A program made the position numbers and the translations under genes. Below, piece after piece: positions 41,293 to 47,274 of a stretch of 64,000 bases of DNA (position 1 is the stretch's first letter; each line of letters starts with the position of its first letter). The notes beneath the pieces were generated by a model, which worked only from the letters and a program-made list of their open reading frames with translations, did no database searches and had not been told where the DNA came from. The DNA is from Terriglobia bacterium (GTDB lineage: Bacteria; Acidobacteriota; Terriglobia; JAJPHL01), in contig JAJPHL010000042.1 in NCBI GenBank assembly GCA_021325275.1, positions 62,001 to 126,000 on the forward strand. Reading direction: 5' to 3'.

Positions 41293-42645
41293 GTGACGCA
41301 AGATTCCAATCGTTCACCGACTCCACTGCTGCTGGCGGGACTGTTTGTCACGCTGGTCGCGCTGGTGGCGTGCGCTTGGTACATGACGATGCAGATCGCG
41401 GGTCTGCGCGCCTTGCAAAGCGATTTGGTGGACCGCAGCCGCCGCGACTCCCTGCAGCTTTTGCGAATCCAGAACGATCTCCACTCCTTGGCGATCGCGA
41501 TGCGTGATGTGCTGGACACTTCACAAGATCAGCGAAAAGATCAGCGGCAAGATCAACGACAAAATCAGGCGCTGACTTCCTGGTCGGCCGAATTTCAACG
41601 TCTTCGATTAGACTTGGAAGATGGCTTCCGCTTGGAAGCGCAAATGGCTCCGGCCCAGCGGACTCCCGAGCAGAAAGAATATCTGCACACATCGGTCGTT
41701 AAGTTTTGGGCGTCCGTTGATCATGCCTTCGACTTGGCAGTGGAAGGAAAGGAGTCGCCGGCTCGTGAGCAAATCCGGCAATCGTTGCAACAGCAGGCGG
41801 CTCTCAACGCCGCAGTGGCCCGGCTGCTGGTTGAAAACAACGACAGTGAAAAGCAGGCGACCATTCGAATTGGAGAGATTTACGACCGCGTTCAAGGACA
41901 GATCTACCGCTTTCTAGCGGCTACCGTGGCGGCGATCGTGCTCACCAGTCTTTACCTGATCCGCGCCAATCGCCGTCTGTTCGCGCAACTGGCGCGGCTC
42001 TCGGAGCAGCGCCGTGATTTGGCACAGAAACTGATTTCGGCGCAAGAATCCACGCTGCGATCGATTTCCCTGGAACTCCACGACGAGTTCGGCCAAATCC
42101 TAACGGCTATCGGGTCGATGCTACGGCGCGCCGGCAGCCACACGCCGGAAGGATCGCCGCTGCTAACGCAATTGCGAGAGGTTGGCGAAGTCGCGCAAAC
42201 GGCTCTTCAGCATGTGCGTGGACTCTCGCAAGCGCTCCACCCGGTGATGTTGGACGAAGCAGGTCTCGAGCGTACGCTGGACTGGTATCTTCCGGCGGTG
42301 GAACGTCAGAATGGCGTGACGATCCACTATGAGAAATCAGGATCTTCTTTCCCAGTGGAGGGAAGCAAGGCCGTGCATGTCTACCGCATCTTGCAGGAAG
42401 CGTTGAACAACGTGGCTCGCCACTCCGGTGTTAGTCAAGCTTGGGTGCGCCTGCGTTTCGAAGCGGGTGCGTTGGAACTGGAGGTGGAAGATCACGGCAC
42501 GGGAATCACCACGCATCCCGAGAAACGCGGCCTGGGTTTGGTGGCTTTGCGTGAGCGCGCCCAACTACTAAACGGCGCCGTGGAATTCGTGCGGCCGCCG
42601 GGAGGAGGGACCCTGGTGCGGCTCAAGGTTCCCGTGGAGAATTGA
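41293..42645 (+). CDS. NarL-type sensor histidine kinase
   Basis: A 450-residue membrane sensor. TM1 about 12-33 and TM2 about 205-223 enclose a Gln/Asp/Arg-rich helical periplasmic region of about 170 residues (including a DQRKDQRQDQRQNQ run), like four-helix-bundle sensors. A short HAMP-like linker leads to HisKA_3 with phospho-acceptor H263 in ISLELHDEFGQILTAIG, then HATPase_c with the N box (QEALNNVARHS), DHGTG and GLGLVALRERAQLLNG. Start is GTG. The response regulator begins seven bases downstream, forming a standard cognate pair. Signal unknown; given downstream redox genes, redox or peroxide sensing is a guess. Confidence 0.92.
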   Translation: MTQDSNRSPTPLLLAGLFVTLVALVACAWYMTMQIAGLRALQSDLVDRSRRDSLQLLRIQNDLHSLAIAMRDVLDTSQDQRKDQRQDQRQNQALTSWSAEFQRLRLDLEDGFRLEAQMAPAQRTPEQKEYLHTSVVKFWASVDHAFDLAVEGKESPAREQIRQSLQQQAALNAAVARLLVENNDSEKQATIRIGEIYDRVQGQIYRFLAATVAAIVLTSLYLIRANRRLFAQLARLSEQRRDLAQKLISAQESTLRSISLELHDEFGQILTAIGSMLRRAGSHTPEGSPLLTQLREVGEVAQTALQHVRGLSQALHPVMLDEAGLERTLDWYLPAVERQNGVTIHYEKSGSSFPVEGSKAVHVYRILQEALNNVARHSGVSQAWVRLRFEAGALELEVEDHGTGITTHPEKRGLGLVALRERAQLLNGAVEFVRPPGGGTLVRLKVPVEN

Positions 42646-43333: not shown

Positions 43334-43864
43334 ATGTCCAATCGATTCGTGGCAATCGTCGTTTTGGCCTTTTCGATTGCGTTCTTGGGCGCGCATGGGA
43401 AATCCTCCGCCGTCGACTTAAACCTTGCCGACCTTAACGGCAAGAAAGTTCATCTTCGCGACTATCGCGGAAAGATTGTGGTCCTGAATTTTTGGGCGAC
43501 TTGGTGTGGTCCGTGCCGCGAAGAATTGCCCATGTTGGTTGAAAGCGAGAAGACCTGGTCTGCCAAAGGCGTGGTTTTCATCGGTGCATCGCTGGACGAA
43601 AAGAAAACCCAGAAAAACATTCCCGAGTTCCTGCAGAAGTACGCCGTCCGCTTTCCCATCTGGATCGGCGCCAACGCCGATCACTTGGCCGACCTGCGGA
43701 TGGGAGAGGCCGTGCCGGACACAGCTTTCATCAATGAAGAAGGCATCATTTTCGCGCGAGTCCTCGGAGAGATCAAGAAGGCCGAGCTTGACGAACGTCT
43801 CGCATGGGTTACCGGAGACCGGTCACTGCCTGCTCCGAAAGCACTGGTCCGCAACCTGCCGTAA
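43334..43864 (+). CDS. Periplasmic TlpA/ResA-like thioredoxin
   Basis: A 176-residue protein with an N-terminal signal or anchor helix (about 5-20) and an AhpC-TSA/Redoxin-type thioredoxin fold. The active site is WCGPC with C58 and C61 in NFWATWCGPCRE; the cis-Pro is in AVPDTAFI. This family reduces disulfides in the periplasm, for example apocytochrome CxxCH motifs or peroxidases. No second Cys pair is present. It is in line with the two-component pair upstream and with the AhpD-like selenoprotein gene downstream across a 473-bp gap, and could be the reductant of that protein; this is inferred from position. Confidence 0.92.
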   Translation: MSNRFVAIVVLAFSIAFLGAHGKSSAVDLNLADLNGKKVHLRDYRGKIVVLNFWATWCGPCREELPMLVESEKTWSAKGVVFIGASLDEKKTQKNIPEFLQKYAVRFPIWIGANADHLADLRMGEAVPDTAFINEEGIIFARVLGEIKKAELDERLAWVTGDRSLPAPKALVRNLP

Positions 43865-45460: not shown

Positions 45461-46057
45461 ATGGATCCCATGTTCCTGCCCGATGTGGAAGGGAATCCGC
45501 AACCCGGCGCCTACCGTAATCTGGTGCACGCGATGCAGCAGGCCGGGCAGGAGTATCCGCAGATCTGGCACCTCTTTGCCTTTCTGCCGCAAGCCACGGA
45601 ACACTTGGCGCGCTTTACGCAGGAGATCCTGCGGGGGCCGGCGCCGATCAGTCCCGGTCTAAGAGAGTTGATCGCCGCCTACACTTCTTTCCAGAATCAC
45701 TGCCCATTTTGAGTGAAGTCGCACGCCGCGGTCGCGGCGGAATTGCTGGGCGACGAGGATCTCGTACAAGGTGTCCTGCGCGATCTGGAGAGCTCGCGCC
45801 TCGACGAGAAGGAGAAGGCGCTGTTTCGATTCGTCGGCAAGGTCAATCGCCAATCGCCGAACATCACCGCCGCCGACATGCAGCCTTTATATGCGCTCGG
45901 CTGGACGGATGAGGTGATCTACTACGCCATCACCGTCTGCGCACTCTTCAATTTCTACAATCGCTGGATCGATGCCACCGGGGTCCATGCGCTCTCGGAC
46001 GAAGCGCACCGTGAGGGAGGGAAGCGGTCGGCATTGTACGGCTACGTCCGGAAATGA
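45461..46057 (+). CDS. AhpD-like peroxidase-related selenoprotein (Cys-x-x-Sec), TGA read as selenocysteine
   Basis: One continuous 198-residue frame if TGA 45710-45712 is read through. The first half ends NHCPF, the TGA follows, and VKSHAAVAAEL continues in the same frame. AhpD/carboxymuconolactone-decarboxylase proteins have Glu, CxxC and His with fixed spacing; here E69, C81, U84, H88 give gaps of 12, 3 and 4, the same as E118, C130, C133, H137 of mycobacterial AhpD. The TGA therefore replaces the second active-site Cys. A six-pair GC hairpin with loop GGUC begins 11 bases after the TGA. The C-terminal half (LYALGWTDEVIYYAITVCALFN in part) is typical of peroxidase-related AhpD proteins. 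Predicted role: thiol/selenol peroxidase or disulfide reductase. It is coupled to the upstream outer-membrane gene. Confidence 0.85.
45724..45739 (+). promoter_or_regulatory. Bacterial SECIS hairpin of the AhpD-like selenoprotein gene
   Basis: CGCCGC-GGTC-GCGGCG: six Watson-Crick pairs closing a GGUC loop, with 17 bases between the TGA and the loop. Escherichia coli fdhF has 18 bases and the same GGUC in its apical loop, contacted by SelB. The hairpin lies in coding sequence and is compatible with the AhpD reading. Confidence 0.8.
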
Positions 46058-46065
46058 AGCTACGG

Positions 46066-47274
46066 CTAGTGCCGGAACACGGTGGTCTGCGGATGGTAGA
46101 GTTGCCAGTCGAACCAAAAATCGCTGATCGTAGCGACCGGCTTCAGGCAACGTCCAGTGGCCGGTCCGGAAATTGCGCATCCCTGGAAGTTCCACTCGCT
46201 GACGGTCGCGCTGTCCATAAACAGTCCGGAAGAGTCTTCGATTTTGTTGTAAAACTGCGTGGGAGCGCCATCGATTTCACTGAGGAATGCGCGAATCGAC
46301 TTGCCGTCCGGTCCCACGACTAAGAAGATATCTTTTCCGCCAAGGTGATCTTGGATCAGTTTCAGTTCCAGCATTCGCTTCACGGGATAGGCCCGGCTTG
46401 CTCCCGCAACTTCCACTCCGATCATAAGTGTTCGCGGAACCAATCCGGTCGCTTTGGTATTGACTACGGTGGGAGAATCGTTGATCCGTTTCTCCCAATC
46501 CTTCGGTTCATACCATTTGCGGTAGGCTGCCGCCGGCTGCAGCACTGTTCCGTGAGGATTTTCTTTTCGCCACAGGCCGAACGACAATTCCTCGGTGCTG
46601 ACGAGTCTCAACTGGTTTCCTTTCAGAGGGCCGGAAACGGCCCGCCCGCTGATCTGTTGCCAGAAAGATCCTGTCTCGTCGTCGCGCATCAAAAAATTTT
46701 GGTTGTTGATCCCTGCCAGATGAAACGTCAGCACTCGTCCGCCGACTTCCCGCGTCCACACCAGACCGGTGTGACAGAGCGTTCAATATGTAGCCACAAT
46801 CGCTACGCCGCCGACGCGGTCGTTCACGATGTGGTGATAGCCCATGGTGCGGATCGGAAAGGCCCGCTGCTCACCGGCGATCGACACCGTCAACACCATG
46901 TCATCAGCATCCACCGGCGCCTTGTCGGCTGCCACGAATCCGGCGTTTGGCATTGGATGGAACATCAACTCATAGACGTTCACCTGGCTCAGGGTCGCAA
47001 ACGCAACGGTCAACACCACGAGGACAATTGCTCCAGCACGACCCGCCCGGCCCGCTGCGTTGCGCCAAAGCGAAACCACCGCGACCAAGCTGATCGCCGC
47101 GCAAAGGATCGCCAGCGCCGGTCCCCATCTCCGTACCATCAACGCCCACGCCAGCTCGGTCGCTCCCTGCGCGCGAAATGGCCGAATCACATACATGGGG
47201 AAGGCCAAGCAGAGAAACGCCACTAGACACAACCCTGCGACAGCGAGCCATAATGCAGGTTTTGGCAGTTTCAT
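46066..47274 (-). CDS. DUF3179 membrane protein with Sec-x-x-Cys motif, TGA read as selenocysteine
   Basis: A 402-residue frame from ATG 47274 if the TGA at 46785-46783 is decoded. Three N-terminal transmembrane helices (about 8-30, 48-68, 75-95) precede a DUF3179 domain: FPIRTMGYHHIVNDRVGG and VAIVATY, then the TGA, then TLCHTGLVW, VLTFHLAGINNQN and MRDDETGSFWQQISG. Ordinary DUF3179 proteins read 'VTYCPLC' here, so the TGA replaces the first Cys (U164) and C167 is the partner. A six-pair hairpin with loop GGUCU follows 15 bases after the TGA. DUF3179 has no established function; a redox or metal-binding site at this pair is inferred. Without readthrough the gene appears as two pieces. Confidence 0.82.
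46757..46773 (-). promoter_or_regulatory. Bacterial SECIS hairpin of the DUF3179 selenoprotein gene
   Basis: On the minus strand CACACC-GGTCT-GGTGTG forms six pairs with a GGUCU loop, 15 bases after the TGA. The loop is the same as in the neighbouring AhpD-like gene and as in fdhF, although stem sequences are unrelated, which argues for selection on the loop. Confidence 0.78.

Follow-up and report, generated by a model that had tools for sequence, protein, structure and literature searches.

A DUF3179 gene with an in-frame TGA predicted to be read as selenocysteine in a soil acidobacterium

The DUF3179 domain protein (pfam11376/PF11376) is listed, as UxxC/T, among the predicted prokaryotic selenoproteins in two reviews (PMC9312934, 2022; PMC13188914, 2026), the first of which cites Zhang and Gladyshev 2007 (NAR 35:4952; Olavius algarvensis symbiont) for it. 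The passages on DUF3179 in these reviews assign it no function, and their entries for it do not name Acidobacteria. The TIGR01926 family also appears, as a CxxU selenoprotein, in the list of PMC13188914, and the distance from UGA to the loop of bacterial SECIS elements has been quoted as 16-37 nt (PMC10778597).

Here we describe a DUF3179 gene in a window of 64,000 nt, the whole stretch of acidobacterial DNA that was analysed. An earlier note on this DNA had proposed a possibly undescribed selenoprotein family; this claim to novelty fails because the reviews already list DUF3179, and no new selenoprotein family is added here. What is new is that, as predicted from sequence, Sec is the prevailing form among the acidobacterial members, that DUF3179 is a tandem duplication, with repeats suggestive of a Rieske fold devoid of cluster ligands, and that two co-occurring Cys in the second repeat point to a site beyond the cytoplasm. 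In our main reading, to which we give a probability of about 0.75, the gene is a true member of this known selenoprotein family, with Sec inserted by means of SelB, tRNA-Sec and a hairpin, and the product is a membrane-anchored, extracytoplasmic selenol/thiol enzyme.

One reading frame across an in-frame TGA

The gene, its main features and its convergent neighbour are as follows:

46066..47274, minus strand: gene for the DUF3179 selenoprotein (P0001), whose 402 residues include Sec164, from frame reading and Pfam
46783..46785, minus strand: in-frame TGA, codon 164, read as Sec (TY-U-TLC); 117 TGA and 34 Cys in 151 homologues
46084..46941, minus strand: DUF3179 domain, spanning residues 112-397 and made up of a tandem duplication, from Pfam and from hhalign and blastp of the halves
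45461..46057, plus strand: separate, convergent gene for a predicted AhpD-like/CMD selenoprotein, start inferred (TIGR01926, 93.6 bits; PF02627)

The frame opens with an ATG at 47274, closes with a TAG (46068..46066) and has the TGA at 46785..46783 as its sole internal stop. With the TGA treated as a residue, Pfam reported DUF3179 as one match (E = 2.3e-62; 211.5 bits against a gathering cut-off of 27) covering model positions 11-292 of 292 (282/292). No NCBIfam model matched the protein. Frame reading and a Pfam match spanning the TGA thus bear out the earlier note's coordinates, its single frame and its placement of the TGA at the first Cys of the TY[C/U]xLC motif.

A scan for relatives, using peptide patterns without the Cys/Sec motif, gave 80 named relatives titled Bryobacterales, Terriglobia, Acidobacteriaceae or other Acidobacteria; 79 of these 80 nearest named relatives had TGA and one (L092) had Cys. 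Across the phylum, DUF3179 was present in 133 of 396 genomes, and among the matches listed each gene had either zero stops or one TGA. Aligning position 164 and counting Cys versus TGA, a check suggested by the earlier note, yielded the 117 TGA and 34 Cys given above and nothing else among the 151 acidobacterial genes. The motif Cys position is conserved, as is the downstream frame in relatives that carry the TGA.

Conventional annotation would cut the gene short and record another ORF from the GTG at 46761, in keeping with a chance nonsense codon in a dead or misread gene. However, the identical TGA occurs in 117 homologues with the frame conserved on both sides, and TAA or TAG was never seen among the matches listed. 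We therefore rejected a pseudogene or sequencing error, which we consider extremely improbable given that relatives share both the TGA and the frame. That UGA 164 specifies Sec at the first motif Cys is instead strongly supported by these sequence comparisons.

Selenocysteine machinery and the downstream hairpin

The source genome (6.86 Mb, 97.6% complete) encodes SelA (C30:13600-14925, 523 bits), SelB (C2:69366-71240, 334 bits), SelD (C2:117482-118408, 365 bits) and a tRNA-Sec (selC) with anticodon TCA (C63:19870-19965). The earlier note had treated absence of Sec machinery as fatal to its proposal; all four genes are present in the same genome as the DUF3179 TGA gene. SelD (L016) has an in-frame TGA near its own N-terminus (KAAG-TGA-ASKLSPKFL) and itself looks like a selenoprotein.

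Taken alone, an open frame across a TGA is also compatible with genome-wide reassignment of TGA, or with readthrough by an ordinary tRNA to Trp or another residue. Against this, TGA terminates other genes in the window (a histidine kinase gene ending at 42645 and the AhpD-like gene ending at 46057), several Sec homologues themselves end with TGA, the sense homologues all have Cys at position 164, and tRNA-Sec and selABD are present. We rejected recoding on these grounds and regard its probability as negligible.

Of 46 genomes carrying TGA forms of DUF3179, 41 had SelB above the cut-off, and one further genome had a partial match below the cut-off (220 bits, model positions 78-578). The other four had no recognisable SelB match (G317, G357, G350 and G080), of which G357 is 63% complete, G080 is 75% complete and G350 is 7% contaminated. 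Among genomes with sense forms only, 42 of 59 had SelB above the cut-off. In class family f2, all ten genomes with the Cys form (TYCTLCHTG) had no SelB above the cut-off, and G084, with the Sec form (TYUTLCHTG), did have it. The subfamily containing the window gene comprised 111 tree rows, 100 Sec and 11 Cys (FastTree, root not inferred). The Cys rows were the f2 clade and L092, and because both nest among Sec rows, on starred branches, Cys in this subfamily is most simply interpreted as a replacement of Sec. Loss of SelB would not be required for such a switch, since the genome of L092 retains it. Among the relatives with the TGA form, Bryobacterales bacterium F-183 (AP025252.1, locus L053), whose genome is nearly complete, also has selB.

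Downstream of the TGA lies the following element:

46756..46774, minus strand: SECIS-like hairpin TCACACC-GGTCT-GGTGTGG, its stem kept in Sec homologues with compensating synonymous changes and decayed in Cys orthologues

The 7-bp stem (46774..46768 / 46762..46756) begins 8 nt after the TGA and the GGTCT loop (46767..46763) 15 nt after it, where the earlier note had placed it. Of the 105 Sec homologues that share the HTG context, 92 form every one of the seven stem pairs. Among homologues encoding HTGLVW (94 Sec, 11 Cys), the loop Gly codon was GGT in 94/94 Sec but 1/11 Cys genes, and the closing pair formed in 92/94 compared with 1/11; the Cys orthologues here represent only two independent switches, so that Fisher values overstate independence. 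The Thr and Leu codons covary in Sec forms (ACC with CTG in 88, ACG with CTC in 4, mismatched in 2), and because these changes are synonymous the constraint acts on the RNA. Over 54 distinct sequences, 97.4% of cells were paired, with 2 pairs and 4 cells changed on both sides. None of 500 shuffles was as high for pairing, for the number of both-side-changed cells or for covariation, and versions of the hairpin slid along the sequence paired at only 28-54%. A conserved GGUC loop with a covarying stem, which the earlier note had wanted looked for, is thus found. Support for the hairpin comes from comparison across homologues: folded singly, the 45 nt from the window had an ordinary energy (z = -0.63), and Rfam at gathering thresholds gave no match anywhere in the window. 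In UPLx-type subfamilies (L123, L126, L131 and L134) the predicted hairpin, CGGGCGT-CGTGT-ACGCCCG in L126, lies a few bases further downstream, suggesting that this SECIS-like element has not kept one position across the family.

The hairpin also bears on whether the locus might be two cistrons, a membrane peptide ending at a UGA that is mostly a true stop and a separate protein from GTG 46761. A mechanical 231-codon ORF does follow the TGA, and partial termination at Sec codons is common. Yet the hairpin is retained only where the TGA is present, the split would fall inside one Pfam domain, just where a beta strand ends, and Cys orthologues are one continuous protein. With the domain continuous, the orthologues unsplit and the hairpin tied to the TGA, we rejected two cistrons as very improbable. 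In the selenoprotein reading, SelB and tRNA-Sec would decode UGA 164 as Sec, directed by the GGUCU-loop hairpin that starts 8 nt downstream. Comparison across these soil Acidobacteriota settles in favour of one real selenoprotein a split gene that a stop-codon reading would cut in two.

The reactive residue, membrane topology and fold

The protein is organized into three parts:

46990..47262, minus strand: three predicted membrane helices before the domain, residues 5-28, 51-72 and 76-95, from model helices and hydropathy
46537..46938, minus strand: repeat 1, about residues 113-246, with Sec164, D198, W205, G215, H147, N151, D152 and T201, from the alignment and the model
46072..46461, minus strand: repeat 2, about residues 272-401, with C366 and C376 and no Cys/Sec motif, from the model, half-versus-half comparison and the alignment

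The two halves of DUF3179 matched each other with a probability of 99.8% in hhalign (E = 3.3e-29) and at 8e-12 in blastp, and the Cys/Sec motif is confined to the first. Across the 151 sequences, residue 164 is invariably Cys or Sec; D198, W205 and G215 are invariant, and H147, N151, D152, L166, T201, F184 and L222 nearly so. The second motif position, 167, has Cys in 139 of 151 and A, T, V or D in the other 12, and Sec forms lacking the second Cys include UPLA, UPLT, UPLV and UPID. The distant copies L113, L115, L124, L126, L130, L134, L167, L171 and L172 combine Sec at the first motif position with T, V, A or D at the second. Of the Cys pair that the earlier note had taken as a redox-active site, one member holds up: because 164 is invariant whereas 167 varies, residue 164 alone is, on the alignment, the defining reactive group, and 167 is a partner that is usually there but can be dispensed with. 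For a family so far uncharacterised, the reactive group is thereby narrowed to one residue, making its function directly testable.

C366 and C376 in repeat 2 were both present in 92 sequences and both absent in 59. This co-occurrence suggests a disulfide and hence an extracytoplasmic location. The three N-terminal helices, which hydropathy peaks near residues 16, 60 and 90 also mark, would fit such a topology, as the loop joining helices two and three is rich in arginine. The product would thus be anchored by these helices, with two tandem beta-rich domain copies outside the cytoplasm.

The AlphaFold model (pLDDT 92.1 for the whole protein and 95.8 for repeat 1) has Sec164 where a beta strand ends. 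Its best PDB neighbours were mostly Rieske-fold proteins, with Foldseek E values never below 0.001. Repeat 1 matched 3c0d, 3gce and 5bok with probabilities of 0.91-0.99 and target TM-scores of 0.49-0.57, the best Rieske-fold matches having E values of 0.068-0.15, and the full-length search gave 5cxm (TMt 0.66 over 93 columns). The CxH and CxxH ligands of a Rieske [2Fe-2S] cluster are absent, with TYUTLCHTG and D198-x-x-T201 instead. When profiles were compared with 32 Rieske domains, repeat 1 had no match and repeat 2 reached a probability of 14.5% (E = 0.0019 for one comparison), and no solved structure was convincingly related to the protein by sequence. We do not claim homology with Rieske proteins; a cluster-less Rieske-like fold for the repeats is a suggestive, not significant, lead from the model. 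A search of viral structures gave one match under 0.001, to an uncharacterised Indivirus protein.

These neighbours raise the alternative that Sec binds a metal, or occupies a derivative of a Rieske-cluster site, in place of thiol/selenol redox chemistry. Sec164 and Rieske box 1 both lie where a strand ends, and by our reading D198 and T201 would, provided the patterns match up, take the places of the Cys and His of box 2. But the CxH...CxxH ligand set is missing, the Foldseek E values stay at or above 0.001 and repeat 1 has no support from profile comparison, and we consider such a role unlikely.

A selenol/thiol enzyme is the reading we prefer, the protein being most likely a membrane-anchored extracytoplasmic oxidoreductase. 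Its first domain copy would carry a single reactive selenol, Sec164, at the strand end amid the conserved H147, N151, D152, D198, T201 and W205, with Cys167 as the usual, though not constant, resolving partner. At the cell surface, Sec164 may attack a substrate of the disulfide or peroxide type, and the selenenyl intermediate would then be resolved by Cys167 or an external thiol. More tentatively, and at distinctly less than even odds, we propose a duplicated cluster-less Rieske-type fold using one selenol/thiol at the first-ligand place as a redox centre on the membrane's outer face. On this proposal Sec would be ancestral among the acidobacterial members and Cys would have replaced it later, once in a SelB-less lineage.

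The AhpD-like neighbour has the motif NHCPF-TGA (TGA 45710..45712) and a GGTC-loop hairpin (loop 45730-45733), and from its sequence (CPFU) it is a predicted second selenoprotein. CPF-TGA genes also occur near DUF3179 in L028, L039, L050 and L057. A TlpA/ResA-like thioredoxin-fold protein (WCGPC), encoded some 2.2 kb away at 43334-43864 on the plus strand, is a possible reductant for the DUF3179 protein. Neighbourhood clustering of 81 loci identified no partner conserved subfamily-wide, the largest real neighbouring families occurring in about 20 loci.

Comparison with known systems

Like bacterial SECIS elements, the hairpin stands directly after the UGA, within the coding sequence, and has a small loop starting with G. 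Its loop, 15 nt after the TGA, is at or just under the quoted lower edge, depending on counting. Rieske-fold (ISP) domains, including the Rieske-like NirD small subunits, are the best structural neighbours of repeat 1, whereas DUF3179 differs from them in its tandem arrangement, its lack of CxH/CxxH ligands and E values above 0.05. With the known DUF3179 selenoproteins, as their review entries give them, the gene shares the Pfam family, the Sec-x-x-Cys motif and the Sec position within it (UTLC here). It differs from them as listed in belonging to an acidobacterial, membrane-anchored subfamily in which predicted Sec prevails.
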